From Candidatus Poribacteria bacterium (GTDB taxonomy: Bacteria; Abyssobacteria; SURF-5): a DNA stretch of 35,570 nt. Shown piece after piece: positions 13,698-32,222 of the stretch (within the stretch, counting starts at the first letter, position 1; every line of letters starts with the position of its first letter). Under the pieces are notes generated by a model. That model saw only the letters and a program-made list of their open reading frames with translations, did no database searches and was not told the origin of the DNA. The stretch is from the NCBI GenBank assembly GCA_016215705.1, contig JACRIR010000133.1, forward strand, positions 1-35,570, read 5' to 3'. A program made the position numbers and the translations under genes.

Positions 13698-14108
13698 CTA
13701 TGAGAGCGCGCCTGCGAGCTTAAGACGCGCGATAGCGCGTCTGAGAGACGCCTCGGCCCGGACGATGTCTATCTCGGGGTTCTTCGTCCCCAGTCTTTCA
13801 CGCGCCCTGGCCATAGACGCTCGAGCCCGTTCCACGTTGATCTCTTCTTTTTTCTCTGCTGTGTCGACGAGCAGCGTCGCGCTTTTCTGAGTAACGACGA
13901 GAAAGCCTTCTCCCACGCTCATTTTCAGGTCGGACTTGCCCTCGAGCTTGATCGAGATCATGCCGATCTCGATGTTCGTGAGGAGTGGCGCATGACCCGC
14001 CAATATGCCCAGGTAGCCCAGCCCTCCGGGAGCGGTCACACACTCGACGTTATCGCTAAAGACGGTGCGCTTCAGTGTGACTATTTCAAGCGGATAGGAT
14101 TTCGCCAA
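13698..14108 (-). CDS. atpC: F1Fo ATP synthase epsilon subunit
   Basis: Epsilon links the rotor to the c-ring and can inhibit ATP hydrolysis. The 136-residue protein has the N-terminal beta-sandwich (ECVTAPGGLGYLGILAGHAPLLT is the family hallmark region) and a C-terminal helical hairpin (about 90-134). The start is TTG at 14106-14108, with AAGGGG about eight bases upstream. It is the last gene of the operon, five bases after atpD. Confidence 0.95.
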   Translation of the reverse strand: MAKSYPLEIVTLKRTVFSDNVECVTAPGGLGYLGILAGHAPLLTNIEIGMISIKLEGKSDLKMSVGEGFLVVTQKSATLLVDTAEKKEEINVERARASMARARERLGTKNPEIDIVRAEASLRRAIARLKLAGALS

Positions 14109-14113
14109 TTTAC

Positions 14114-15591
<1,478 letters not shown>

Positions 15592-15637
15592 GGGCGGGTG
15601 CATTCCTCTAACAAATCGGCCACTCGATCCGATACGG

Positions 15638-16504
15638 CTACTTCTTCTTGGTCGCGTCGGCGCCCGTGACGACCTCGAGTATCTCGCGCGTGATGGATGC
15701 CTGCCGCACCTTATTGTAGTTAAGCGTCAGCGTGTGAATCATCTCGTCCGCGTTGTCGGTGGCGCTCTTCATCGAGACCATCCGGCTTCCATGCTCGGAG
15801 GCGCCGGCCTCGACAAACGCGAGATACACCTGGTTCTGGAGGTACTTCGGGAGAAGCTTCTGCATCAACTCCTCCGCTGTCGGCTCGAAGATATAGAGGG
15901 CGCTTCCACCCGCCTGTTTGTCAGCCTCCGCGCTCTCGAGGGGAAGCAACTGCGCTTCGAGCGGAGTTGTCACCATCGCGCTCTTGAATTTCGTGTAGAA
16001 GAGGACCACCTTGTCGTAGTCCGCCTTTTCGTAGCCGCCTGCCAGAAAGCGCATTACTTCGGCGACGAACGAGACCTCGACCTCTTTGCTCGGGAACGGC
16101 CAATACTTGAGAATCTCATATTGCCGCCTCTTGAAGAAGTCGTTCGCCTTCTTGCCGATGACAACGAGCCGAACCGATTCCGGTTTGAGGGACTTGATGA
16201 ACTCCATAGCCCTCTTTATGATGTTCGCATTGTACGCGCCACAGAGGCCTTTGTCGGAGGTCATCACAACGACGCAGACGCGCTCGACCGGCCTCTTCAC
16301 GAGAAGCGGGTGTGTGACGCCGGAAGCAGACTTGCCGACCTCGTTCATGAGCAGACGCAGTTTTTCGGCGTACGGACCGGCGGCCTGAACCATCTCCTGC
16401 GCCCGTTTGAGCTTCGAGGCGGCGACCATCTGCATCGCGCGCGTGATCTGCTGGATGTTCTTTACGCTTCGAATGCGATTTCTGATTTCACGTGTATTTG
16501 CCAT
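15638..16504 (-). CDS. atpG: F1Fo ATP synthase gamma subunit
   Basis: Gamma is the central shaft turning inside the alpha3beta3 head. The 288 residues include both hallmark ends: the N-terminal helix starting [20 protein letters not shown] and the C-terminal NKVRQASITREILEVVTGA helix. The internal SDKGLCGAYN motif is present. The ATG overlaps the atpA stop by one base (TAATG), implying translational coupling. Confidence 0.97.
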   Translation of the reverse strand: MANTREIRNRIRSVKNIQQITRAMQMVAASKLKRAQEMVQAAGPYAEKLRLLMNEVGKSASGVTHPLLVKRPVERVCVVVMTSDKGLCGAYNANIIKRAMEFIKSLKPESVRLVVIGKKANDFFKRRQYEILKYWPFPSKEVEVSFVAEVMRFLAGGYEKADYDKVVLFYTKFKSAMVTTPLEAQLLPLESAEADKQAGGSALYIFEPTAEELMQKLLPKYLQNQVYLAFVEAGASEHGSRMVSMKSATDNADEMIHTLTLNYNKVRQASITREILEVVTGADATKKK

Positions 16505-18030
16505 TATCGCTCTGACGGCTTGAACAGAAGCTTAAACTCTTCTGTCGCCTTCTTGATCCGTTCCATGGTTTCGTCAGTTATCTTCTTCGTTTCGCGGATG
16601 GACTGTCCTATTGCCGGGTACTTGTCCTTCATAAATTCATGGAAATCTATCTCGAAGGATTTCACATGATCGGCGGGGACGTCGTCGAGCATTCCCAGGT
16701 TGGCCGCCGCGATAATCATCACCTGCTTTTCGACCTCCATGGGGTCGTATTGCGGCTGCTTGAGCACTTCGACGAGCTTCTCGCCCCGGGTCAGTTGCGC
16801 CTGTGTCGACTTGTCCAGCTCCGAGCCGAACTGGGCGAACGCCGCGAGTTCGCGGTACTGCGCCAGATTCAGGCGGAGCGCGCCGGCCACTTTCTTCATA
16901 GCCGGTATCTGAGCGTTTCCGCCTACGCGCGAGACCGAGAGACCGACCGAGACGGCGGGCCTCACGCCTCCGTAGAACAGGTCGGTTTCGAGATATATCT
17001 GCCCATCAGTAATCGAGATGACGTTGGTCGGGATATATGCCGAATAGTCGCCCGCTTGTGTCTCGACGATGGGGAGCGCGGTGAGCGAGCCGCCACCGAG
17101 CTTGTCGTTGAGCTTGGCGGCGCGCTCGAGCAAACGCGAATGAAGGTTGAAGATATCCCCCGGGTACGCCTCGCGGCCGGGCGGCCTTCTAAGCAGCAGC
17201 GACATCGTGCGATACGCGACCGCATGCTTGGATAAGTCGTCGTATATAATCAGAGCGTGCTTGCCGGTGTCTCTGAACTCCTCACCCATGGCGCAGCCGG
17301 CGTAAGGCGCGACGTACTGCATCGGCGCAGCGTCGCTCGCATTGGCGGCCACGATGATGGTATAGTCCATCGCTCCGTATTTCTGGAGCGTCTCGACTAC
17401 ACCGACCACGGTCGATTGTTTCTGGCCAATGGCGACATAGATGCAATAGACGTCCTTGCCGCGCTGGTTTATTATAGCGTCGATTGCGAGGGCGGTTTTG
17501 CCCGTCTGCCGGTCGCCGATGATAAGCTCACGCTGGCCGCGACCGATGGGGATCATCGAGTCGATGCACTTGAGCCCCGTTTGCAGCGCCTCCTTAACGG
17601 GCTGGCGCTGGACGACGTTGGGCGAGCGGCCTTCGATCGGCCTGAATTGCTTGTTGTTGAGAGGCCCTTTTCCGTCAACCGGCTGGCCGACGCCGTTGAC
17701 CACTCGACCGACGAGCTCGGGGCCGACGGGCACTTGCAGGATTCTGCCCGTGCGCTTGACTTGCGCGCCCTGTTGGATATCCTCATACTCGCCGAGGATG
17801 ACGGCGCCAATCTGGTCGAGTTCCAGGTTGAGGGCCATTCCGAAAACGCCACCGGGGAACTCAAGCATCTCGGCCGACATGCAACTGGGCAGCCCCTTGA
17901 TGCGGGCGATGCCGTCGCCGGCCTCGATGACGACGCCGACCTCCTCCATGCCGATCGTGACTTTTGATTCCTCGATGTGTCGCCGCAATACAGCGGATAT
18001 TTGAGCAGGATCTAGCTTAAGTTCCACCAA
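16504..18030 (-). CDS. atpA: F1Fo ATP synthase alpha subunit
   Basis: This is the non-catalytic nucleotide-binding F1 subunit. The 508-residue length is typical. Walker A is [10 protein letters not shown]. The family signature region [14 protein letters not shown], with the arginine-finger Arg, is present near residue 370. The start is TTG at 18028-18030, preceded by GGGAGGA at six-base spacing; an adjacent GTG is the alternative. The gene is 33 nt from atpH and overlaps atpG by one base. Confidence 0.98.
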
Positions 18031-18063
18031 GACACATCCTCCCTTTGATGAAGAAGCAGCGAA

Positions 18064-18600
18064 TCAACCAACCATCTGCTTCTTTAATTGAGCCAGTTTG
18101 CTGCGCATGCTGCCGTCGAGAACCTTGTCACCGACCCTGACGACGGCGCCGCCCAGAATTGACTCGTCCACGCGAGCGCGCAGGTACACGTCTTTCTTGG
18201 TCAGTCTCTTCAACTCGGCGCCAAGCTTCTCGAGTTCCGCGTCGGAAATCGGGACGGCGGTGATTACTTCCGCCGACACCTTCGACCTGGCCGCGCTCGC
18301 CAGAGCGTAAAACTCCTCGGCAATCTTGGGAAACACACGCCCGCGGTCCTGGTCGATGATAAGGTTCATCTGGTTGAGCATGACGCGGCTCAACTTGTCG
18401 CTCATGAGGTCGGAGAGAGCATTCTTCTTGCCCTCCGCCTTGATTCTCGGGTTATTGATGAACTCTTTAAGCTCGAAGTTGCTCTGGTACAGGCGCTCGA
18501 GCTCGCGTAGTTCTTCTTCCACCCGGTCGGCGACACCTTCCGCCGACGCAAGTCGAAAGAGCGATTCGGCGTATGCGCTTGTAATAGGATCAGCCTTCAT
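18064..18600 (-). CDS. atpH: F1Fo ATP synthase delta subunit
   Basis: Delta (OSCP homologue) fastens the peripheral stalk to the top of F1. The 178 residues fit the family. An N-terminal helical bundle begins ITSAYAESLFRLA, and the C-terminus has the typical ILGGAVVRVGDKVLDGS strand-turn before the last helix. Its ATG lies 11 nt inside the end of atpF, so the two are probably coupled in translation. Confidence 0.95.
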   Translation of the reverse strand: MKADPITSAYAESLFRLASAEGVADRVEEELRELERLYQSNFELKEFINNPRIKAEGKKNALSDLMSDKLSRVMLNQMNLIIDQDRGRVFPKIAEEFYALASAARSKVSAEVITAVPISDAELEKLGAELKRLTKKDVYLRARVDESILGGAVVRVGDKVLDGSMRSKLAQLKKQMVG

Positions 18601-19249
18601 ATAGCTTGCCTACCTCGGTAATGTATTGGTCGATGAGTTTGCCGTGTTCCTGTTTGCTCAGAGTCTTCTGGATGACCTTCGAGGCGACTTCTATGGAGAT
18701 ATCGGCAATCTGGTTCTGAAGCTCTTTTATGGCCTTTTCCTTTTCACGCCCGATTTCCTCCTGGGCGCGTTTGATCAGTTGATTGGCCTCTTCTGTCGCC
18801 TTGGCGATGGTCTCCTTGCGCAGATTCTCTCCAAGGGACTTGCCTTCGTCCATGATCTTCTTCGCCTCTGTGCGAGCGGTGTCGAGCTGCGCCTTGTATT
18901 CGGCGAGCAGTTTCTCGGCGTCCGCGCGCGTGAGCTCGGCGTTCTTGATGTCGCCTTCGATCTTGTCGCTGCGTTTGTCGAGCATCTCCATTATGCGAGG
19001 AAACGCAAACTTGTTCAAAATGAAGAGCACAACGGCGAACGCAATGAGCGTCCAAATCCACATATTGAAAGCGGGCGGGGCCGCTTCGTGCGCTTCGCCA
19101 TGCGCGGCAGGCTTCTCCGTATGGGCGCCCGTAACCGCTGGCGTTTCCGCGGTCACTTGTTGCATCTCTCCCTGAGCGGCTTCTTGCGGGGCCGTCGCCT
19201 GGTGCGTGTCGCCCGTTTCCTGCGCTAAATAGAATATGGTTTCCGCCAC
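18590..19249 (-). CDS. atpF: F1Fo ATP synthase b subunit with long N-terminal extension
   Basis: Subunit b forms the peripheral stalk. The membrane helix, MWIWTLIAFAVVLFILNKFA, begins near residue 63 and is followed by the long Lys/Glu-rich coiled coil with KRSDKIEGDIKNAE. Unusually, about 62 residues precede the membrane helix; they are rich in Ala, Glu, Gln, Thr and His and lack a signal peptide. The start was taken as the GTG at 19249, because GGAGGTGA lies five bases upstream; another GTG at 19258 overlaps that element. The extension would sit on the side of the membrane opposite F1. Confidence 0.93.
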   Translation of the reverse strand: MAETIFYLAQETGDTHQATAPQEAAQGEMQQVTAETPAVTGAHTEKPAAHGEAHEAAPPAFNMWIWTLIAFAVVLFILNKFAFPRIMEMLDKRSDKIEGDIKNAELTRADAEKLLAEYKAQLDTARTEAKKIMDEGKSLGENLRKETIAKATEEANQLIKRAQEEIGREKEKAIKELQNQIADISIEVASKVIQKTLSKQEHGKLIDQYITEVGKLYEG

Positions 19250-19288
19250 GTCATTCACCTCCAGTTAAAGGACTCCAGGTTTCCCTGA

Positions 19289-19543
<255 letters not shown>

Positions 19544-19557
19544 TTATACCCAAACTC

Positions 19558-20298
19558 TTAGTGATGTTCACGAAGCGAGTCACCGATATACAGCGAGGTG
19601 AGTATCGCAAAGATAAACGACTGAATCAGAGCGACGAAAATCTCGAATAACAGCATTCCCACGACCCCGAGGAAGGGCAGCACACCGAGCAGCTTCCAGC
19701 CGATCCCTTTCGCGAACAACGCCACCGCGCCCCCCGTGAATACCAGGAGGACCTGGTGGCCCGCAAGCATATTGGCGAAGAGTCGGACGGCCAACGCAAA
19801 ATGTTTCGCGAGGAGGCTGATAATCTCTACAGGGTAAATTAGTGGGATCACGTACCAGGGAACCCCATGCGGGATAAAGCCCTTGACAAAATACCCGTAA
19901 ATCCCCTTCTTGCGAACGCCGGTAACCACCACAATGACGAGCACCAGCACCGCAAGCGTGGCCGTGACGTTTATGTCCGATGTCGCCGTATGGCCAAGAG
20001 GCCCGAGCGGGAACACACCGACGATGTTGCAGAAGAACACGAAGAAAAAGAGCGACGCGATGAGCGGGAAATACGGTAACCCTGCGTGGCCCATGGTGTC
20101 GAGAACCATCTTTTGGCGAATAAGCGTAAGGAGCAACTCGACGAAGCTTTGGTATCTCCCGGGCACCATCTCTTTCTTCCCCGCCATATAGATGGTGATG
20201 AACGCCAGGAACGCGGCTACCCACATCCATATGACTGCCTTGTTGATAGAGAAATAGGGGCCCAAGTCCACTATGTTCTGTAACGCTGCATGTTCCAA
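19558..20298 (-). CDS. atpB: F1Fo ATP synthase a subunit
   Basis: Subunit a forms the ion half-channels beside the c-ring. The 246 residues contain about six membrane helices. The essential Arg is Arg172 in FALAVRLFANMLAGH. The start codon is TTG (20296-20298) with GGAGG eight bases upstream. The gene follows the AtpI-like gene by five bases and precedes atpE by 41. Confidence 0.97.
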   Translation of the reverse strand: MEHAALQNIVDLGPYFSINKAVIWMWVAAFLAFITIYMAGKKEMVPGRYQSFVELLLTLIRQKMVLDTMGHAGLPYFPLIASLFFFVFFCNIVGVFPLGPLGHTATSDINVTATLAVLVLVIVVVTGVRKKGIYGYFVKGFIPHGVPWYVIPLIYPVEIISLLAKHFALAVRLFANMLAGHQVLLVFTGGAVALFAKGIGWKLLGVLPFLGVVGMLLFEIFVALIQSFIFAILTSLYIGDSLREHH

Positions 20299-21093: not shown

Positions 21094-22596
21094 TCACGCA
21101 AGCATACGTTCGATCGTGTAGCGGGCCATGTCGATAATGAAGCCCGGCGCGACTCCAAACAAGAGAGTAAACATCGTTGTGACAACGATTGCGTACATGG
21201 TCGAACTGATGGCATCTCCTTCGGCCAGTACCTCGCCCTCCGGTTCGCGCATGTACATGTAAAGGACGACGCGGACATAGTAGAACGCTGCAACGACGCT
21301 CATGAGCACACCGACTACGGCAAGCGTCAGGTTGCCTGTCACTATTGCCGCCTTGAATATATAGAACTTTCCGATAAATCCAAAGGTTCCCGGGAAACCC
21401 ATTAACGATAGCAGCAAGATAGTCATGAGCAGAGCCGTCAGCGGCCTGCGTTTCGCGAGGCCGGCGTAGTCAGCCAGCGAATCGCGCGGATTATCGGCCC
21501 TTCCGAGCGAGATGACCACCGCGAACGTGCCCAGGTTCATGAACATGTACGCGAACAGATACACCATCACGCTCATCATCGACTCGGACGCAAACGTGGC
21601 TGACATCGCCTTGCCGCCTGTCATCTCTGTGGCGGTTCCGGCGGATACTATTCCGATGAGCAGATAGCCGGCATGCGCAATGCTCGAGTACGCCAGCATC
21701 CGTTTCATACTCTTCTGAGCGACGGCGACAACGTTGCCGTATATCATCGTCAGGATCGAGAGCAAAGTGAACATTTGCACCCAATCGGGAACAAGGGCTC
21801 CGAACGTCTTCATGTAGACGCGCATGATGACGGCGAATGCGGCGACCTTGGGGCCAACCGACATGAACGCGGTCAGCGGCGTCGGCGCGCCCTCATATAC
21901 GTCGGGCGTCCACATATGGAACGGGACAGCGGCTATCTTGAATGCGAACCCGACGGTCATGAGGACCAGCGGAAGCCGTGTCATCACTTCGGAGTCAATA
22001 ATATTGCTATTGGGAGACAGCGTGAAACCCTGCAGGCTGGTCGTGCCCGTTATCCCATAGAAGAATGACATCCCATACAGCAGCAGCGCGGACGCGAACG
22101 ACCCGAGCAGGAAATACTTCATCGAGGCCTCGCATGAGCGCGGGTTGTCCCTCTGGAACCCTGCCATAAGGTATATCGAGATGGCCATGAGTTCGAGACC
22201 GATGTAGATGGTCACAAGGTCGTTTGCCGACGCCATCACCATCATGCCGACGGTGCAGAACAGCACGAGCTCGAGGTATTCGCCCACGCTGATGTTGTTC
22301 AGTGAGAGGTACCTGGGCGAAATGAGGACGGTAAGCGCCGCCGAGAATATGAATATTAACTTGAAGAACTGGGCATATGAGTCCACGGCGACCATCCCGC
22401 TGAACGCCGTCTCGTTCCTGTCCCATATCAGCATCGTGGTCAAGAACGCCAGGACCAAACCCACGAGGGCAATCGCGGAGAGAGAGGTTTTCCGTTGCGG
22501 CTTGATGAAGATGTCCACCGCCAAAACGAGCAATCCGACGAGGGCTACAATTACCTCGGGATAGACGGCCGTAAAATCAATCGGGGGAATCTGCAT
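21094..22596 (-). CDS. nuoN: NADH-quinone oxidoreductase subunit N
   Basis: NuoN is one of the three antiporter-like, proton-pumping membrane subunits of complex I. The 500-residue length and about 14 hydrophobic helices fit. Family motifs include KIAAVPFHMWTPDVYEGAPT, MLAYSSIAHAGYLLIG and GFPGTFGFIGKFY. The ATG overlaps the nuoM stop by one base (TAATG). It is the last nuo gene; 164 nt separate it from the ATP synthase operon. Confidence 0.96.
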   Translation of the reverse strand: MQIPPIDFTAVYPEVIVALVGLLVLAVDIFIKPQRKTSLSAIALVGLVLAFLTTMLIWDRNETAFSGMVAVDSYAQFFKLIFIFSAALTVLISPRYLSLNNISVGEYLELVLFCTVGMMVMASANDLVTIYIGLELMAISIYLMAGFQRDNPRSCEASMKYFLLGSFASALLLYGMSFFYGITGTTSLQGFTLSPNSNIIDSEVMTRLPLVLMTVGFAFKIAAVPFHMWTPDVYEGAPTPLTAFMSVGPKVAAFAVIMRVYMKTFGALVPDWVQMFTLLSILTMIYGNVVAVAQKSMKRMLAYSSIAHAGYLLIGIVSAGTATEMTGGKAMSATFASESMMSVMVYLFAYMFMNLGTFAVVISLGRADNPRDSLADYAGLAKRRPLTALLMTILLLSLMGFPGTFGFIGKFYIFKAAIVTGNLTLAVVGVLMSVVAAFYYVRVVLYMYMREPEGEVLAEGDAISSTMYAIVVTTMFTLLFGVAPGFIIDMARYTIERMLA

Positions 22597-24530
22597 TACT
22601 TGTCTCCACTATGACCATGAGGGTCTGCATGAGCGGCCTCAGGCGCTTCACCGTGTCCGGCCGCGGCAGGTTCCATAAACGTCAGCCCTCTTCGCATTCC
22701 GTGGGATTCACCTGCTCTGAACTGCTCCATCATTGCCTCATGGCCGGCGGGCATGGCCGGCGTTTGTCCGGGCATTGAGATAGGCGGATGTCCCGGCGGC
22801 ATAGCCGACTGTTGTCCGGGCATCATGTGTTGTCCGGGCATTGAAATAGGCGGATGCCCCGGCGGCAGTTGCATGCCCGAAGGCGCTTCCATGCCTTGAC
22901 CGGGGGCGGCGTTCATCTGCATCTCCCGCATCTGTTTCATTTCAGCCAGCGCCGCTTGCGGATTTGTCATGAGAACCGTATTCATCACGGCGGCATCCAT
23001 GAAACGAAGGAACGGCTTCGGGTAGATTCCTATCCAGAAGCAGAGGATAATGATCGGGATCAGAGTCATGACTTCGCGCAGGTTCAGGTCCTTGAGTTCC
23101 ATATTCTTCGGGTTCTCGAGCTTGCCGAACATCACGCGCTGATACATCCAGAGCATGTATGCCGCACCGAGCACGATGCCGCTGGTGGCGAGGAGGACCA
23201 TCAACGTGGACATGTTCGTAGCCCATTCCTTGGGAAGAAATCCGAGAGCAACGACGGGCTTCATCCACAGAGCCTTGAACCCTCCAAGGAGGATGGTAAA
23301 TTCTCCGATGAACCCGTTCAGAGAGGGAAGCCCGATTGACGACAGCGTTATGATCATGAACATGATCGCATAGAGGGGCATCTGATGGCTGAGGCCGCCG
23401 AAATCTTTGATCATGCGGGTGTGTCTGCGTTCATATATCAGGCCGACGACCAAGAACAGCCCGCCCGTGCTCAGGCCGTGGTTTATCATTTGGAGTATTC
23501 CGCCTTCGACTCCCTGCTGGTTGAGCGCGAACAGGCCGAGCATAACAAATCCCAAATGGCTGACGCTCGAGTAGGCCACGAGTTTCTTCATGTCAGGCTG
23601 CATCATTGCGGTCAGCGCGCCATAAACGATTCCGATCACGGCGAGCGTTATACCGTAAGGCAGGAACCACATTGTCGCCTGCGGGAACAGAGGGAGGCTG
23701 AACCGCACAAAGCCGTAAGTGCCCATTTTCAGCAGAACGCCGGCGAGGATGACGCTGCCGGCGGTGGGCGCCTCGACGTGCGCGTCGGGAAGCCACGTAT
23801 GGAAGGGGAACATCGGCACTTTGATGGCGAACCCGACGAAAAACGCGAGGAAAAGCCAGCGCTGAATATGCATCGGGATATCCATACCGTAGTACTTCAT
23901 GACCTCGAAGCTGAGTTCGCCGGTTTGACGGTAATGGAGGAAGTAGAGTCCCAGAATCGCCAGCAGCATGAGCACGCTGCCGGCGAGGGTATAAAGGAAG
24001 AACTTGATTGCCGCGTAGAGCTTTCGCGGGCCGCCCCACACGCCTATCAAGAAGTACATGGGCACAAGCATGATTTCCCAAAACACGTAGAAGAGGAAGA
24101 AATCTAGTGAGAAAAACACGCCCAACATGCCCGTCTGCAAGAGGAGCATGAAAATATAGTATTCTTTCACCCTGTCCTGTATTGCAGTCCACGATGACAG
24201 GACAGCGAGCACGCCGAGGAACGTAGTCAGGAGAACGAGCAGGATGCTGATGCCGTCAACCCCGAGGAAGTACTGCGCGCCGAGACTCTCGATCCAGGGT
24301 GCTTTCTCCACAAACTGGAGCGCATGCCGGTCAATTATGAAACCGGGTATGAGCCTGAGCGAAAGCACGAAATCGACAAGGACGACGATGTTCGCAAACC
24401 ATCGAATCGTGTTGTCGCGTCGCAGGAAAAGCATGATGATGATTGCGCCGATGACGGGGATGTACGTCAGCAGCGAGAGGATGGGCCACTTGAGGCCCAT
24501 GTCAGCGTATGTCAGTATCTCAGGAGTCAA
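22596..24530 (-). CDS. nuoM: NADH-quinone oxidoreductase subunit M with Met/Pro/His-rich C-terminal tail
   Basis: NuoM is an antiporter-like proton-pumping subunit. Residues 1 to about 515 are conventional: [16 protein letters not shown] with the functional Glu, [20 protein letters not shown], and [15 protein letters not shown]. The protein then continues for about 130 residues instead of ending. The tail contains repeated [12 protein letters not shown] (about 556-567 and 578-589), further MPGQ and MPAGH units, and a His/Glu/Ala-rich end ([18 protein letters not shown]). The encoding DNA has a 66-bp-period repeat. The start is TTG at 24528-24530, seven bases after GGGAGAG. The tail may bind metal or be a flexible linker; neither is shown. 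Confidence 0.94.
22764..22867. repeat. In-gene repeat in the nuoM tail, 66-bp period
   Basis: A 38-bp stretch at 22764-22801 recurs at 22830-22867 with two base differences; the period is 66 bp (22 codons). A third partial unit (TTGTCCGGGCATCATGTG) lies between them, from 22812. It encodes the duplicated [12 protein letters not shown] segment. The multiple-of-three period keeps the frame, as expected for a tandem duplication tolerated in a disordered tail. Confidence 0.75.
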
Positions 24531-24642: not shown

Positions 24643-26766
24643 CTACCTGAAAAGTATGTATATGCTCAGGAATACGAACACTCCGATTGCCATTACGAGA
24701 GCGTAGTTCTGCACGTAGCCGGTTTGTATCCGCCTGAGAACATTGCTGCTCGCCTCGACAATTTTTCCAACGAGGTTTACGGCGCCGTCGACCACTCCGC
24801 CGTCGAAAAGAATACTGGCGCTGCTCAGCGTCCTGCCGAGCCACGCGACGCCATTGACCGTTCCGTCAATAATGTTGGCGTCAAACCAGCATAATATGTT
24901 TGCGAACTGCTTGGTTCCGCCGACAATGGCGAAGTTGTAGATTTCATCGACGTACCACTTATTCAGAAGGGCCTTGTGCAGCCCGGGCAACTTGAATTGG
25001 AGAAGCAATGGGATATTCGGATTCTTGATGTACATGAAGTAACCGACGCCGATGCCGGCGCCCGCAATCGCGATCGAGACAAACATCATAAGAAGCTCAA
25101 GCGAACGCGAGTGGGCCTCTCCCCCGCCGCCGACATGAGCCGTCATTTCCTGCGCATAAGCAAGACCCGCCGAGGCAGCCTCATGAGTCCCATGAGCGCC
25201 AAGAGCCGCTTTGTCGAGAACTGGGGCAAGAAAATGGTGAAAATGGTTTGCGCCTCCGAGCGCTTCGGGAATGCCGACCCACCCACCCACGACCGACAAG
25301 ACCGCCAGCGCCATGAGCGGATATATCATCGCGCCCGGCGATTCGTGGAGGTGATGCTCGGCCTCATGAGAGACGCGCGATTCACCGAAGAACGTGAGAC
25401 ATATGAGGCGCGTCATGTAGAACGCGGTCATCAGGGCGGCAGCGGCGCCGACGGCCCAGAGGAACTTTCCCCACATCGGCCCGAGAACGGGCGAATTATA
25501 CGTGAACGCTTTCCACAGAATTTCGTCCTTGCTGAAAAAACCGGCGAACGGCGGAATCCCGGCGATGGCGATATATGCGATCATAAACGTCCAGCACGTA
25601 TGCGGCATGTGCTTTTTCAGAGCGCCCATGTTGCGCATGTCTTGATCGCCGCTCATGCCGTGAATGACGCTTCCGGCCCCGAGGAACAGGAGCGCTTTGA
25701 AGAAGGCATGCGTCATCAGATGGAAAATCCCCGCCGTGTAGGACGCTACGCCGCACGCGAGGAACATGTAGCCTAGCTGGCTGACCGTCGAATACGCCAG
25801 AACCTTTTTGATATCATATTGCGCCAGACCAATCGTGGCCGAGAAGAAAGCCGTCGCAGCGCCGATAGCGCCGACGAGTATGAGCGTCTTGGGCGCCATC
25901 GAAAAGAGCGCATTACAGCGGGAGACCATATAGACGCCGGAGGTCACCATGGTTGCCGCGTGGATGAGGGCGCTCGTAGGCGTCGGGCCTTCCATTGCGT
26001 CGGGCAGCCACACGTACAGTGGAAGCTGCGCCGACTTGCCCGTGGCGCCGACGAAGAGAAGCATCGTGATCGCGGTCACGATAGCGCCGTTATAGGCAAG
26101 TGTGTGGGGCGCAGCGGCGAAAACGGTCTGATAGTCAAGTGACCCGAAGTTCGTAAAAATAAGCATCATTCCCAGCGCAAACCCGAAGTCGCCGACCCGG
26201 TTGGTTACAAACGCTTTCTTGCCGGCATTGGCGGCCGAATCCTTCCCGAACCAGAACCCGATGAGCAGATAGGAGCACAAGCCGACACCTTCCCACCCTA
26301 TGAACATCATGAGGAAATTGCCACCGAGCACGAGTATAAGCATCGCGCACGTGAACAGGTTCATGTACGCAAAGAAACGGTACTGCCCGCCGTCTTTGTG
26401 CATGTAACCGTGCGAATAGACGTGGATGAGGAAGCCTACGCCCGTGACCACGAGGATCATGACTGACGACAGGGGGTCTAGTTGGAACTTGAACGGAACC
26501 CTGAACGCGCCCATCTCGATCCACATGAACACTTCGCGCGTGAATACGCGCACGCCCTCCGCGTTGGGCTCAATGTGCCGAAGCGCAAGCACGCAAAGAA
26601 CGGAGGTCACAAAAGAGAGGAAGACAGAGGCGCATCCGATAATTGAGGGCACTAACTCGGTCTTGCCCTTGAAGAACTTTCTCCCGAGGAGCCCTATCGT
26701 AACGAATCCCAAAAGAGGGAACACCGGGATCAACCAGATGTAGTCGAGTACTTGTCTTAGCGCCAT
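24643..26766 (-). CDS. nuoL: NADH-quinone oxidoreductase subunit L
   Basis: NuoL is the distal antiporter-like subunit with the long lateral helix. The 707 residues are somewhat longer than the usual 610-650. Family motifs are present: FIGWEGVGLCSYLLIGFWF, GATGKSAQLPLYVWLPDAMEGPTPTSALIHAATMV without internal breaks, and YSTVSQLGYMFLACG. The extra length is mainly in a His/Ala/Gly-rich loop (about 520-570, with HLHESPG, HFHHFL and GAHGTHEAAS) before the C-terminal lateral helix region. AGGGA precedes the ATG. Confidence 0.96.
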   Translation of the reverse strand: MALRQVLDYIWLIPVFPLLGFVTIGLLGRKFFKGKTELVPSIIGCASVFLSFVTSVLCVLALRHIEPNAEGVRVFTREVFMWIEMGAFRVPFKFQLDPLSSVMILVVTGVGFLIHVYSHGYMHKDGGQYRFFAYMNLFTCAMLILVLGGNFLMMFIGWEGVGLCSYLLIGFWFGKDSAANAGKKAFVTNRVGDFGFALGMMLIFTNFGSLDYQTVFAAAPHTLAYNGAIVTAITMLLFVGATGKSAQLPLYVWLPDAMEGPTPTSALIHAATMVTSGVYMVSRCNALFSMAPKTLILVGAIGAATAFFSATIGLAQYDIKKVLAYSTVSQLGYMFLACGVASYTAGIFHLMTHAFFKALLFLGAGSVIHGMSGDQDMRNMGALKKHMPHTCWTFMIAYIAIAGIPPFAGFFSKDEILWKAFTYNSPVLGPMWGKFLWAVGAAAALMTAFYMTRLICLTFFGESRVSHEAEHHLHESPGAMIYPLMALAVLSVVGGWVGIPEALGGANHFHHFLAPVLDKAALGAHGTHEAASAGLAYAQEMTAHVGGGGEAHSRSLELLMMFVSIAIAGAGIGVGYFMYIKNPNIPLLLQFKLPGLHKALLNKWYVDEIYNFAIVGGTKQFANILCWFDANIIDGTVNGVAWLGRTLSSASILFDGGVVDGAVNLVGKIVEASSNVLRRIQTGYVQNYALVMAIGVFVFLSIYILFR

Positions 26767-26816: not shown

Positions 26817-27119
26817 CTACCATTTCATTGCGCTGGCTTCATCGGCGTTCACGGCCCGACTAACCCTGTAAAGCGCAATGAGTATTGCGAGGCCGGTTGC
26901 GGCCTCGGCCGCTGCAACGGTTATCACAAAAAGCGCAAACACCTGCCCGTGAGGCGACTGAAACTGGTGGGCGAACGAAACCAGATTCAGATTGACGGCG
27001 TTCAGCATCAACTCTATCGACATGAAGATCACTATCAGATTGCGCCGGATGAGAAAGCCGAGCATTCCGATACAGAACATCGCCGCGCCGAGCGCTATAG
27101 AATGGACGGGATCAATCAT
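26817..27119 (-). CDS. nuoK: NADH-quinone oxidoreductase subunit K
   Basis: NuoK has 100 residues and three membrane helices, with the conserved Glu in FMSIELMLNAVNLNLVSF that lines the proton path, and the second Glu in AAEAATGLAILIALYR. The start overlaps the nuoJ stop by four bases (ATGA), so translation is coupled. It is followed by nuoL after 50 nt. Confidence 0.97.
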   Translation of the reverse strand: MIDPVHSIALGAAMFCIGMLGFLIRRNLIVIFMSIELMLNAVNLNLVSFAHQFQSPHGQVFALFVITVAAAEAATGLAILIALYRVSRAVNADEASAMKW

Positions 27120-27652
27120 CTGGCCTCTTTCTCCCTTACTGTATCAGCGGCCGCCACCCCGCGGCGGGCGAGAATGACGGACCCTATCATCGCCACGAGC
27201 AGTAATATCGAGGCGATCTCGAACGGGTATAGATACGTCAAGAACAACTCGTGCGCAAATGCGCGCGTGGTGTCGGGCGCGTTGACAGCCGCCTCCTGGA
27301 TGCGGGAAGGCTCGATTCCGCGTTTCGCGACCGTGAGAACAACGGCCATGACCATGGCGGCGAAGAGAGCCGCGAACCCGACCTGCGCCGGTTTGTGAAA
27401 GGCCGCCCGAAGCGCAGCCTCTTTCGACAGGTCCACAAGCATGATGACGAATATATACAGAACCAGCACGCCGCCCGCATAAATGATTATCTGGACAGCC
27501 GCTATGAACTCGGCGCTGAGCAGGAGATAAATGCCCGCAAGGCTGAAAAAGGTCACGAGCAGCCAAAGCGCCGAATGCATCGGATTGCGGCGGCTTATGA
27601 CCATCAGAGAGGATATCAGAGTTATTGCCGCCAGGATATAAAAGGAAACCAT
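27116..27652 (-). CDS. nuoJ: NADH-quinone oxidoreductase subunit J
   Basis: NuoJ is a membrane subunit of complex I with about five helices; its third helix twists during turnover. The 178 residues include the family core NPMHSALWLLVTFFSLAGIYLLL and the conserved AEFIAAVQIIIYAGGVLVLYIFVIML. It lies seven bases after nuoG. In the standard nuo order nuoH and nuoI stand between nuoG and nuoJ; both are missing here. Confidence 0.96.
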   Translation of the reverse strand: MVSFYILAAITLISSLMVISRRNPMHSALWLLVTFFSLAGIYLLLSAEFIAAVQIIIYAGGVLVLYIFVIMLVDLSKEAALRAAFHKPAQVGFAALFAAMVMAVVLTVAKRGIEPSRIQEAAVNAPDTTRAFAHELFLTYLYPFEIASILLLVAMIGSVILARRGVAAADTVREKEAR

Positions 27653-27659
27653 AATGCTG

Positions 27660-30230
27660 TCAATCCTTCGCCATGCGAACGCTGGCGACCCACACCGGCG
27701 CGCCTTCTTCCGCTTTCAAGGCGGAAGCTTCAAGTTTCTTGACGAGCTTGGAGACCACGGCAAGATCGTGCGCGGGAATACCAAGAACTCCCGCGGGCAG
27801 TTCCCTGCTTATACGTGCACGCAGCTTCAACGAACCGCCGCCCTTTACCGCCAGTTCCACCATGTTTCCGTTCTTCACGCCCAGATTGCGGGCGTCATCT
27901 TCGCCGATTTCGACAACTCCGTCCACCCGAATCCGCGCGAGACTCGCCGAATGGAGCGACGCCGCGCCGCCATAGTGCAGCATATTGTCAAAGCTTATTA
28001 TATAAGGATAGGCTGCGTCAACGGCCGCCTGGCTTTCTTTCACCAACGAGAGCTTATGCCGGCCGGAAGAGGCAACCTTTGAGTAGTCCCATGTTTCGGC
28101 CTGGGCCAGGCGCGCCGACCCTTTCATAAAGCCATAGTTCGGGGCTGCCGCCGCGATTTGGTTTCGGACGGATTCCAAGGACTCGATCGAAGGCAAACCC
28201 AGTTTGTGTCCGAGCTCCGAGAGAATCTCGAGGTCAGTCCGGCACTCACCCATCGGTCTTATCGCCTTGTTGCTGTGCTGAGTGATCCGGTAAGCGTTTG
28301 TATATGAGGCATCCTGTTCCGCAAAGCTGCAAGCGGGAAGAACCACGTTTGCCATTTCGGCGACCGGCCCCCCGAAGACATCCTGCACGACGAGGAGTTC
28401 CAACGTCCGGAGCACGTCGAGGGACAAGCCGAGAAGCGCCATTTCCTTACGGATATCGCCGCCCATGAGATAAAGCGCCTTAACTTCGCCGGATTCGATT
28501 CCACGAAGGATTCCGGCGACCTCGAGCGGGCCGTTTCCGGCCTCCGATGCTTCTTTATGACCAGGCAAGAAAGCGGGTGTCACACCCATATCGAGCGCGC
28601 CTTGCGCATTGCCCTCACGCATAAGGGAGAGTGTTTTGCCACCCTTCAAGACGGCAAGATTAACGGCGGCGCGGACAATCGAGGAGTTCACGGCTGAATG
28701 CAGGCTGCCCGGCGACAGCATCAAAAGGAGGTTCTTCGAGTTACCGATTGCGGCAGCCATCTCCGAGAGTATGGCGGCGTCAACGCCGGTACTGGCGGAA
28801 ACGTCCGCGAGCGAATACTTGGCCAGGTGCAGCTTCAACTTATTGTAGCCGTCGGTTCGGCGCTCGAGGGTTTCGCCGTCAAGAGAGCCTTTTTCCACGA
28901 GCAGGTTTGCGAGACAATTGAGCACGGCGGCTTCCGCGCCGGGCATTGTCCGCGCAAACTGCGTGCACTGCGTCGTAAGCTTGTTCGAGCGATGGCCGAC
29001 CACAAGCACCTTCGCCGAGCCGGAGGCGTGAACGCGCAACGCCTCGAGAGCGGCCACCGGATGCGTGCAGATAATATTCGAATCGAAGACGAGAATCACG
29101 TCGGAATTGTCGATGTCTGAAAGCGTCGCCGTTGGAGCGGCCACGCCGTAAACATCGGTCATGGTTTCTATAATGGCCAGATTATTGAGGCGCGCCGGCG
29201 TATCGAGACGATTGGTTCCGAGCCCCTCGCGCATGAGGCGCTGGAACGCAAAGAGCGCCTCGTTCGAGCAGCGGGCAGAGGCCAATCCGGCGACGCTTTT
29301 GTTCCCCGCCGACTTGGCTATTTCTCTCAATTTCTCGGCTGCGAGCCCGAGGGCTTCGTCCCATGTCGTATTTCGGACGCTGCCGTTATTGCGAATCGCC
29401 GGGCTCGTGAGCCTCGATTCACTGTGAGCCGCGTCTCTTCCGAACCTGCCGACGGAACAAAGATTGCCTTTGTTATGTCCCTGAAAATCACGTACGGTCA
29501 CACGGTAAACCTTGTCGCCGCGCACGTTGAGCTCATAGGAGCAGCCGATCCCGCAGAACGTGCAGACCGCATCCACGGGCTTAAGCTGCCATGCGCGCGC
29601 GCTGTAGCGGAAAGTTGAGTCCAGTATTGCGCCCACGGGACAGACGGAGAGACATTGGCTGCAACTTTCGCACGGATAACCCCCGAACTGTGTGGGGCCG
29701 ACTTTCGAGGAGTATCCGCTGCGCACGACGCAGTCGATTGCGCGCGCTCCCTGAATCTCTTTGCACACCTGCACGCAACGGCCACACATGATGCAGCGCG
29801 TGTGCCAGATGTCGAGCACGGGCGAAAGCTCTTCTCTGCTCTTCTCGGGTTTAACCGACCAAAACGGCTGCTGCAGGATGCACATCTCTACGGTTATGTC
29901 CTGAACGTCACACTCGCCCGATTTGTCGCAGACCGGACAATCGAGCGGATGATTCAGGAGCACGAATTGAAGCATCTGCTTGCGCTGACGGACTATCTCA
30001 TCGGTGTTCGTGCGCACGACCATGCCCTCGCGGGCCTGTACATCGCACGATGCGACCGCCCTGCTTTCGCCCTCGACTTCCACCAGGCACACCCTGCACG
30101 CGCCTATGGAGGACAGTTTGGGATGATAGCAGAGGGTGGGAATGTATATACCGACGGACTCGGCCGCCTTGAGAATCGTCGTGCCTTTGTGAACGCTGAC
30201 CTTCTTGTCGTCTATCGTAAGATTAACCAT
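27660..30230 (-). CDS. nuoG: NuoG-type iron-sulfur/molybdopterin-fold subunit
   Basis: The 856-residue protein carries the electron wire of the complex I peripheral arm. N-terminal clusters are all ligated: 2Fe-2S by Cys34, 45, 48 and 62; a His94-Cys98-Cys101-Cys107 4Fe-4S; two ferredoxin-type clusters at Cys146-156 and Cys187-197; and a molybdopterin-family cluster starting CTFCGIGC (Cys223, 226, 230). The rest is a molybdopterin-oxidoreductase fold. The Cys or Sec that would mark an active formate dehydrogenase is not seen: the equivalent region reads DTPARLNNLAII. NuoG is therefore favoured over an FdhA. It follows the NuoF'/GltD fusion by 30 nt, which it probably receives electrons from. 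Confidence 0.9.
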   Translation of the reverse strand: MVNLTIDDKKVSVHKGTTILKAAESVGIYIPTLCYHPKLSSIGACRVCLVEVEGESRAVASCDVQAREGMVVRTNTDEIVRQRKQMLQFVLLNHPLDCPVCDKSGECDVQDITVEMCILQQPFWSVKPEKSREELSPVLDIWHTRCIMCGRCVQVCKEIQGARAIDCVVRSGYSSKVGPTQFGGYPCESCSQCLSVCPVGAILDSTFRYSARAWQLKPVDAVCTFCGIGCSYELNVRGDKVYRVTVRDFQGHNKGNLCSVGRFGRDAAHSESRLTSPAIRNNGSVRNTTWDEALGLAAEKLREIAKSAGNKSVAGLASARCSNEALFAFQRLMREGLGTNRLDTPARLNNLAIIETMTDVYGVAAPTATLSDIDNSDVILVFDSNIICTHPVAALEALRVHASGSAKVLVVGHRSNKLTTQCTQFARTMPGAEAAVLNCLANLLVEKGSLDGETLERRTDGYNKLKLHLAKYSLADVSASTGVDAAILSEMAAAIGNSKNLLLMLSPGSLHSAVNSSIVRAAVNLAVLKGGKTLSLMREGNAQGALDMGVTPAFLPGHKEASEAGNGPLEVAGILRGIESGEVKALYLMGGDIRKEMALLGLSLDVLRTLELLVVQDVFGGPVAEMANVVLPACSFAEQDASYTNAYRITQHSNKAIRPMGECRTDLEILSELGHKLGLPSIESLESVRNQIAAAAPNYGFMKGSARLAQAETWDYSKVASSGRHKLSLVKESQAAVDAAYPYIISFDNMLHYGGAASLHSASLARIRVDGVVEIGEDDARNLGVKNGNMVELAVKGGGSLKLRARISRELPAGVLGIPAHDLAVVSKLVKKLEASALKAEEGAPVWVASVRMAKD

Positions 30231-30260
30231 CAGAAAACGCTCTACCTCACTCCGCCCGTA

Positions 30261-32222
30261 TCAGGCGGTCATCACAATTCTATAGCACCTCATGCAGCGC
30301 TCGGCCTCGGCGACCGCCGTCTGCTCGCTGAAGCCCAACTCGATCTCTTTGAGGTTTCCTATTCGCTCTTTCGGCGGCATGGCGGGCATCTTGGCGCGCT
30401 CGAGCCCGCTCACTCCCGCGCAGTATTCCGACTTCGCGACCGCTCCGAGCCCCTGGATTATGTTTCGGAAGCGCATTAACTGGTTAAAGTCGTCGTGAGT
30501 CCTGCCGCTCAGGTATTTGTCAATCGAAGCCGCCGCCTGCAAACCGGTCTGGACCGCCTTGATGACTGATTGCGGCCCTGTGATTGCGTCACCGCCGGCG
30601 AACACGCCTTTGATAGTTGTTTCCAGTGTATCGGGATCAACCTCGAACGTCTCCCGCTTGCTTATCCCGAGACCCTGAACGGTCCGGAAATAATCCATGT
30701 CGGGCGCCTGGCTCACAGCGCCGATAACCATGTCGGCCTCTATGACAAATTCCGAGCCCTTTATGGCAACGGGAGCGCGGCGACCGCTTGCGTCCGGTTC
30801 GCCTAGTTCCATACGCAGGCATTCAAGCCCCGCAACTTTCCCGTCTTTTCCGACAACGCGGCTAGGCGCCATCAGGAAGTTGAGCTTTACGCCTTCATGC
30901 TCTCCCTCTTCGACCTCCCACGGGCTGGCCGGCATCTCCTTGCGCGTCCGGCGATACACCATGCTCACGTTTTCGCAGCCGAGATGCGCCGCCACCCGCG
31001 CAGCGTCAACCGCCGAGTTTCCGCCGCCGATTATGATCACTCTCTTCGGCATGCGCGTGTCTTCGCCGAGATTGATCCGACGAAGGAAATCCATGCAATC
31101 GACGACTCCCTCATATTTATCCTCGTCGGGGATGCCCATCTTTTTGCCCTTCATCGCGCCTATCGCGAGGAAGACGGCTTTGAATCCCTGGTCGAACAAG
31201 TCCTGTATCGAGAAATCCTTGCCGAGCGCCGCATTCATCTTGACTTTGACGCCATAGGCCTGCGCTTGCTCGATCTCGCCGTTGACAACATCGCGCGGAA
31301 GACGATAGGAGGGGATGCCCAGGTGCGTTGTGCCGCCAACCACCGGCGCAGCCTCGAACATGGTCACATCATAGTCCCAATTAGCCAGGTCGCGTGCGCA
31401 AGTGACTCCGGCGGGACCGGTTCCGATGACGGCAACCTTTCCCTTTTCACCCGTCGAAACGTGGGGCGCAAATCGGAATTGTCTCTGCTTGATCAGACGC
31501 TTCTCGTAGTCGGAAACGAAGCGCTTCAGATATGCGATAGAAATAGGCTCATCGACGTTCCCGCGCTTGCATACGGTTTCGCAAGGATGGAAACAGGCGC
31601 GCCCGCATACCGCCGCAAACGGGTTCGGCGAACGTGCCACGTCGATTGAGTCATTATATTTATGTTCACGGATGAGTTCGATGTAGCGGGCGGCATCGGT
31701 CGTTGCGGGACACCCGAAATTGCAGGGAGCTATCATCATGGACGCCGTGTTCGGGGCCGCGCACTTTTTCTTTTGGTTCACATGCGCGTCAAATTCGGCC
31801 CGGAAATGACGGAGGACATCGGCGAGCGGCTTCTCCATTGCGATCCCGAAACCACAGAGGGCTGCGTTGCGGATGTCGGCGGCAAGTGGCAGCAACTTCT
31901 CGATGTCGCAGACGTCGCCTTCTCCGGAAGCGATCTTCTTCAATAGATCATATATGATGCGCGAGCCGACGCGGCACGGGAAACACTTGCCGCACGACTT
32001 CGCCTGAACCTGCTCGAAGAAATTGACCATGATCTGGACGGCGCAAACGTCCTCGCTCAGAACCACGAGGCCGCCCCACCCGACAACCGCTTTGAGGTCG
32101 GGCGGACACGTTTTTCCCGCGAAAAACTTCTTGTGCGCCTCGGGGATTTTCGAGACGGTTTGCTCGCCGGCGAGCTTTCCGCATGGTTCCACAAACCAAC
32201 TGTCAAATAGTATTTCAGCCAA
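30261..32222 (-). CDS. Fusion of NuoF C-terminal iron-sulfur region with GltD-type FAD/NAD(P) oxidoreductase
   Basis: In the 653-residue protein, residues 1-45 match nothing I know. Residues about 48-150 correspond to the C-terminal 4Fe-4S region of NuoF (GWGGLVVLSEDVC, SCGKCFPCRVG with Cys77, 80 and 83, and Cys123), without NuoF's FMN/NADH Rossmann and SLBB domains. Residues about 154-650 are GltD-like: Cys-rich clusters (167, 171, 206, 210, 214, 218), FAD motif GTGPAG (267-272), and NAD(P) motif GGGNSA (399-404). A CMRC pair (643, 646) ends it. The predicted role is flavin-based oxidation of NAD(P)H feeding NuoG, or the reverse. It starts with TTG, with GGGAGAG upstream, as first gene of the operon. 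Confidence 0.9.
   Translation of the reverse strand: MAEILFDSWFVEPCGKLAGEQTVSKIPEAHKKFFAGKTCPPDLKAVVGWGGLVVLSEDVCAVQIMVNFFEQVQAKSCGKCFPCRVGSRIIYDLLKKIASGEGDVCDIEKLLPLAADIRNAALCGFGIAMEKPLADVLRHFRAEFDAHVNQKKKCAAPNTASMMIAPCNFGCPATTDAARYIELIREHKYNDSIDVARSPNPFAAVCGRACFHPCETVCKRGNVDEPISIAYLKRFVSDYEKRLIKQRQFRFAPHVSTGEKGKVAVIGTGPAGVTCARDLANWDYDVTMFEAAPVVGGTTHLGIPSYRLPRDVVNGEIEQAQAYGVKVKMNAALGKDFSIQDLFDQGFKAVFLAIGAMKGKKMGIPDEDKYEGVVDCMDFLRRINLGEDTRMPKRVIIIGGGNSAVDAARVAAHLGCENVSMVYRRTRKEMPASPWEVEEGEHEGVKLNFLMAPSRVVGKDGKVAGLECLRMELGEPDASGRRAPVAIKGSEFVIEADMVIGAVSQAPDMDYFRTVQGLGISKRETFEVDPDTLETTIKGVFAGGDAITGPQSVIKAVQTGLQAAASIDKYLSGRTHDDFNQLMRFRNIIQGLGAVAKSEYCAGVSGLERAKMPAMPPKERIGNLKEIELGFSEQTAVAEAERCMRCYRIVMTA

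Follow-up and report, generated by a model that had tools for sequence, protein, structure and literature searches.

A NuoF-GltD fusion paired with NuoG as a probable SfrBA-type, NADPH-linked input module of a 13-subunit complex I

Complex I is regarded as a machine driven by NADH (or ferredoxin, or F420H2). Among the papers searched, the described systems nearest to the one reported here are the Nuo-Bfu complex I (PMC9304861) and those in a complex I survey (PMC12361115); the available portion of the survey makes no mention of a NuoF-GltD fusion, and a full-text search of openly licensed PMC papers found no description of such a fusion in complex I. SfrAB of Geobacter is described in PMC2825233 and PMC13186404 (after Coppi et al. 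2007) as an NADPH-Fe(III) oxidoreductase and a putative NADPH dehydrogenase. The FAD of StnC is non-bifurcating and passes the electrons of NADPH down a cluster chain (PMC10482914), and the NADPH-dependent formate dehydrogenase of Moorella thermoacetica is a precedent for an NADPH-linked SfrB-type subunit (PMC13040438).

We analyzed a window, i.e., a whole stretch of DNA of 35,570 nucleotides, containing an operon that encodes, like SfrAB, a NuoF'-GltD subunit with a NuoG-like partner directly after it, and then NuoJ to NuoN. The features are the following.

30261..32222, (-) strand: fusion of the NuoF C-terminal [4Fe-4S] domain to a GltD/SfrB-type FAD-NADP oxidoreductase, 653 aa, TTG start (Pfam, homologues)
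31782..32033, (-) strand: NuoF-type N3 cluster domain of the fusion, aa 64-147, ligands C77, C80, C83 and C123 (PF10589, E 1e-22; ligand table)
30285..31733, (-) strand: GltD/StnC-like domain of the fusion, aa 164-646, with cluster ligands and FAD and NADP(H) sites (Pfam, alignments, VIA-align)
27660..30230, (-) strand: NuoG (SfrA-like), with N1b, N5, N4 and N7 ligands and an extra [4Fe-4S] ligand set (Pfam, ligand tables)
27116..27652, (-) strand: NuoJ (PF00499)
26817..27119, (-) strand: NuoK (PF00420)
24643..26766, (-) strand: NuoL (PF00361/PF00662)
22596..24530, (-) strand: NuoM (PF00361)
21094..22596, (-) strand: NuoN (PF00361)

The operon runs in the order fusion, NuoG, J, K, L, M, N, with spacers of -4 to 112 nt after NuoG, and ORF and Pfam annotation of it revealed no nuoE. 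An earlier reading made from the sequence alone (the sequence-only reading) had placed NuoG 30 nt downstream of the fusion, complete with its cluster ligands, and the N1b, N5, N4 and N7 ligands are indeed seen. F1Fo ATP synthase genes (a, b, delta, alpha, gamma and beta by Pfam) lie directly behind nuoN (window 13698-20298, (-) strand), and ATP synthase-like genes seem to sit behind nuoN in two relatives of the family as well (G001, L056; G002, L057).

The same reading had proposed that the C-terminal iron-sulfur part of NuoF is joined to a full GltD-type oxidoreductase, and the domain search of both parts confirmed this. Pfam assigns PF10589 (NuoF iron-sulfur) to aa 64-147, PF14691 (Fer4_20) to aa 164-241 and Pyr_redox_2 to aa 262-560, all four N3-type ligands are found, and PF01512, the FMN domain of NuoF, was not found in the Pfam scan of the fusion. 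The N-terminus of the fusion is real, because the TTG start is common to three genera, the N-terminal AEILFDSWF is identical in two sister genera, and F6, W9, G48, W49 and G51 are invariant across phyla. A glutamate synthase reading was rejected, as no GltB lies beside the fusion.

The nearest matches of the GltD part are StnC and the A chain of NfnABC, with sequence E-values of 1e-88 to 1e-111. Its fold, compared by VIA-align using an AlphaFold model of moderate pLDDT (68) and covering only residues ~166-651, matches in the Z range of 34-36 (35.0 to StnC 8oh5_C, 36.2 to 9bov_A); the NuoF part was identified by Pfam and phmmer. At the FAD-proximal cluster, K233 of the fusion corresponds to K170 of StnC, where NfnB has Glu. 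Also as in StnC, the motif is PCxxxCP with the upstream CxxC missing, and this CxxC now lies at the C-terminal end (C643, C646), opposite the N-terminal CxxC of NfnB in the alignment. All 34 short fusions compared keep C167, C171, C210, C214, C218, C643 and C646 together with the NADPH-type YRR pair, and position 233 holds Lys, except in one family (the f12 clade) that has Arg there. By analogy with NfnB and dihydropyrimidine dehydrogenase, C167/K233/C643/C646 and C171/C210/C214/C218 are assigned to two putative clusters. In related thioredoxin reductases, the two Arg at the YRR position bind the 2'-phosphate of NADPH. This motif and the homology to StnC and Nfn support the NADPH preference that the sequence-only reading had raised as a possibility.

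The molybdopterin domain of the window NuoG is without a catalytic Cys/Sec, and a formate dehydrogenase reading of this subunit was rejected, the catalytic CH/U site being of an LNN type. Four additional cysteines (156, 187, 190 and 193) make up a ligand set for one more [4Fe-4S] cluster, which is absent from the five canonical NuoGs compared, including that of the window genome itself. By analogy with StnC, this cluster may be a second way in for GltD, or else a relic.

The subunits that the operon lacks are encoded elsewhere in the same genome. The Q and P modules of complex I (NuoA-D, H-N) are all there, J-N in the window and nuoA-B-C-D-H-I as a tight run on contig C45, and the same split into two loci recurs in the two sister genera, G001 (L163, L055) and G002 (L165, L057). 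NuoI, NuoB and NuoD keep the expected cluster ligands, NuoD keeps the quinone-site His/Tyr, and, at the level of the ligand tables, the chain from FAD to N2 and the quinone is unbroken. G001 also holds a complete canonical 14-gene A-N operon with NuoE and full NuoF (L164), and has two NuoD and two NuoJ above the curated cut-off. Because this canonical operon is complete, the orphan sets A-B-C-D-H-I and F'GltD-G-J-K-L-M-N of G001 add up to exactly one further 13-subunit complex I. In the window genome, a MAG that is 92% complete, tblastn located a canonical set on contig C222 (B, C, D, E, A, F, G, H, I, J, K, N); no L or M was found in this set, K and N being ~20 bp apart (L019:14790-16519), and no other complex I-type L or M was found in the genome outside the window. 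The claim that NuoE and a NuoF with the FMN/NADH site are absent thus holds for the operon, but not for the genome. The sequence-only reading had counted full-length nuoE and nuoF elsewhere, combined with a different partner enzyme for the fusion, as evidence against itself: these genes exist, but as parts of another complex I, and the fusion is matched with partner subunits of its own. Contig C208 of the same genome (G000; L020:4388-9816) encodes, in a separate cluster, NuoE, a 1032-aa full NuoF-GltD fusion with an FMN domain, and an [FeFe] hydrogenase, possibly an NADPH/NADH-linked hydrogenase.

Using profile and pattern searches with context annotation, we found fusions of 635-693 aa in three gene settings. 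In the first setting, the fusion lies between nuoD and nuoG, i.e., at the place of nuoE/F (G013, G182 and G321 of one family; G119, G257 and G340; and L062, L063, L064 and L072, which are Thermodesulfobacteriota, Syntrophobacterales, Bacteroidales and Deferrisomatales MAGs, respectively). Across other lineages, this position was read at L058, L195, L196, L063, L064, L072, L198, L199 and L208; the operon is otherwise complete, with the fusion exactly between nuoD and nuoG, in G013, G321, G257, L063, L064 and L072, and all 13 genes are visible in L063, L064, L058, L196 and L199. In the second setting, the fusion heads a contiguous 13-gene operon F'GltD-G-A-B-C-D-H-I-J-K-L-M-N (G356; L203, L240). 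These two arrangements strengthen the original proposal of GltD as the input of complex I in the place of the FMN site. In the third setting, seen among others in Desulfacinum (L061) and in a Geobacteraceae-labelled family (L153-L157), the fusion is alone with NuoG, as in SfrBA. No complex I NuoD was found at E 1e-60 in three genomes that have the stand-alone form (G287, G142 and G405), hence the module also has other uses. By our own reading of contexts in a sample of 386 genomes, the linked form occurs in 10 genomes (three of them from the family of the window) and the stand-alone form in 9. Chance co-location with nuo genes was rejected: ~7 of ~15 fusion clades, as we grouped them, are nuo-linked (binomial tail ~2e-12). 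Judging from gene order, several unrelated bacteria show the same exchange of the input module.

Other arrangements were seen in these searches. In a Candidatus Bipolaricaulota locus (L115:1-8673), a GltD-type gene without the NuoF part lies in a nuo operon between nuoH/nuoI-like genes and nuoJ, a possible alternative input. In Dehalococcoidia (L073, L075), the fusion is preceded by two unidentified genes (~405 and ~310 aa) and followed by a short NuoG/HoxU-like protein (~240 aa), and the third N3 Cys is replaced by Gly. In Desulfohalobiaceae (L079:3677-8392), a stand-alone fusion has a NuoG-like partner with a formate dehydrogenase-type CARLCH site and with the N5 ligands lost; this pair is probably an NADPH-linked formate dehydrogenase.

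The trees were quick searches with SH-aLRT support only. In the NuoD tree, the window complex forms a group with G356 and a single NuoEFG-bearing complex (support 96), and this group is nested in a larger group of canonical NuoEFG complexes (support 99), which fits a swap of the input module within a lineage of ordinary complex I. The fusion label requires at least 4 changes on starred branches of this tree; repeated gain or loss of the module is therefore probable. The GltD tree shows five changes of the nuo-link label, at least 2 of them forced, with the window clade on a long branch and its placement unsure. With label changes forced on both trees, a single origin of the nuo-linked fusions is not supported. 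The NuoGs paired with the fusion, linked or stand-alone, are separate from canonical NuoG (support 99); thus, the fusion and its NuoG appear to travel as a cassette. The third N3 Cys is kept in 13 of 14 nuo-linked versus 7 of 18 stand-alone fusions, a difference that is suggestive only, because p = 0.003 by row becomes p = 0.28 by clade.

We consider it likely that the fusion and NuoG constitute an NADPH dehydrogenase of the SfrBA type and that a 13-subunit complex I uses it as its electron-input (N) module, in the place of NuoE, NuoF and FMN. Gene content, ligands, homology and conserved linkage are read directly from the sequence, whereas NADPH use, docking and direction are inferred. The hydride of NADPH would be transferred to FAD in the GltD domain, and single electrons would pass from FAD to the proximal [4Fe-4S] cluster (C167, C643, C646, K233), to the second GltD cluster (C171, C210, C214, C218), and then to the N3-type cluster (C77, C80, C83, C123). 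From N3, they would proceed through N1b, N4 and N5 of NuoG, N6a/N6b of NuoI and N2 of NuoB to the quinone, the reduction of which would drive proton pumping by NuoH/L/M/N, with NuoA-D, H and I supplied from the second locus on C45. This route is suggested by the likeness to StnC, the conserved YRR and the NADPH flow known in StnC. Alternatively, GltD might dock directly on NuoG as in StnC, via the extra NuoG cluster, the N3 domain being a platform. Since the input is related to NADPH-oxidising enzymes, and the same swap is seen in several unrelated bacteria, the pump of the window probably draws its electrons from NADPH and not from NADH. It should be noted that the two nuo halves are unlinked in the genomes of the window family and that a canonical complex I coexists there, both of which count against an N-module role of SfrBA.

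The same complex might instead run in reverse, with quinol and the proton motive force driving NADPH formation for biosynthetic use. In favour of this, its electron chain would be reversible, forward respiration has a canonical NADH-type complex I at hand, and F1Fo ATP synthase genes lie directly behind the operon; however, the sequence gives no sign of direction, transfer from NADPH to menaquinone is strongly downhill by tabulated potentials (PMC9304861), and we regard reverse operation as unlikely. Bifurcation with ferredoxin had been offered in the sequence-only reading, and a bifurcating or confurcating input for NADPH and ferredoxin, as in Nuo-Bfu or Nfn, would agree with the GltD fold, which is that of bifurcating NfnB, with the conservation of the FAD-contacting R307 (StnC R239) and with the extra [4Fe-4S] site in NuoG. 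This suggestion was not supported: the proximal cluster has the Lys ligand of non-bifurcating StnC, not the Glu of NfnB, and the operon contains neither an NfnA-like gene beside the fusion nor the BfuBC core of the Stn/Bfu family (NuoE and a cluster-rich NuoF with FMN). Such an input seems highly improbable, and NADPH oxidation is probably linear, without bifurcation.

With the A-B-C-D-H-I half on another contig, and with close homologues standing alone with NuoG in many genomes, the pair could also be a soluble SfrBA-type NADPH oxidoreductase that stands alone and has no more than its operon in common with part of complex I. We find this improbable in the face of nuo linkage in approximately seven clades and three different gene orders, the full ligand set of NuoG, N5 included, and nuo-linked operons without any other input gene. 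Another explanation concerns the membrane arm: NuoL and NuoM of the window, the only ones of complex I type found in G000, might also complete the NuoEFG complex on C222, where K and N are adjacent without L/M, such that one arm would serve two input modules. The canonical operon of G001 has its own L/M, however, and genes may be missing from an incomplete MAG, which leaves little probability for a shared arm.

The electron donor of the 11-subunit complex I has been described as unknown (PMC11238625). In the Geobacteraceae-labelled family, the fusion is present in 14 of 14 genomes (in two of them in pieces), and a profile search of these genomes found no other NuoF-like match. The complex I loci of G076, G077, G080, G073 and G078 are A-B-C-D-H-I-J-K-L-M-N without E, F and G in 5 of 5 cases, with SfrBA standing alone elsewhere, and the same pairing is found in G036 and G336 (operons without EFG were read at L249-L253, L241 and L243). 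Because stand-alone SfrBA accompanies EFG-less nuo operons, and the Geobacteraceae-labelled SfrA keeps N1b, N4 and N5, SfrBA is a candidate donor for the 11-subunit enzyme. A general donor role is opposed by G133, G270, G331 and Desulfacinum, which have SfrBA together with a canonical NuoEFG enzyme, and by the three genomes without NuoD. We tentatively suggest, at somewhat less than even confidence, that SfrBA is a general, exchangeable NADPH-oxidising N-module of complex I, which several lineages tie to it by operon, and that its stand-alone form is the physiological donor of the 11-subunit complex I lacking NuoEFG. If a recurrent NADPH-type input is real, anaerobes with low-potential menaquinone could drive full pumping from the more reducing NADPH pool and would thereby solve in another way the energetic problem that Nuo-Bfu was proposed to answer (PMC9304861). 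SfrBA would also give a testable candidate for the donor, a question stated in PMC11238625.

Compared to known systems, the window module would function like SfrBA, or like the GltD half of Stn, coupled to complex I. The window pair has the arrangement of Geobacter SfrAB, likewise a GltD-like and a NuoG-like subunit; this comparison was made via the Geobacteraceae-labelled homologues, not the G. sulfurreducens sequence. In that family, NuoF'-GltD (~655 aa) is encoded in single copy and NuoG comes next, as in the window, but SfrBA stands alone outside the nuo operon, whereas the window fusion is inside one, and the SfrA has lost the extra-cluster and N7 ligands, both of which the window NuoG retains. 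The StnABC/NfnABC transhydrogenase (8oh5, 9bov, 9n5u) has in common with the fusion the GltD fold, the lysine cluster ligand and the C-terminal CxxC; unlike in the window, its GltD is inserted in the NuoG chain, NuoE and a full FMN-bearing NuoF bifurcate, and the enzyme is soluble, without a membrane arm. In Moorella SfrB2/SfrA2/FdhF3 (PMC13040438), an SfrB-type subunit handles NADPH, but its partner is a catalytic formate dehydrogenase, unlike the window NuoG. The Nuo-Bfu complex I is, as here, a case of an alternative input module in an anaerobe, with BfuABC (NuoE and a cluster-rich NuoF with FMN) as the input, whereas the window operon is without NuoE and without the FMN domain (PMC9304861). 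The 11-subunit complex I is without canonical NuoEF; the window operon has a defined SfrBA-type module instead.
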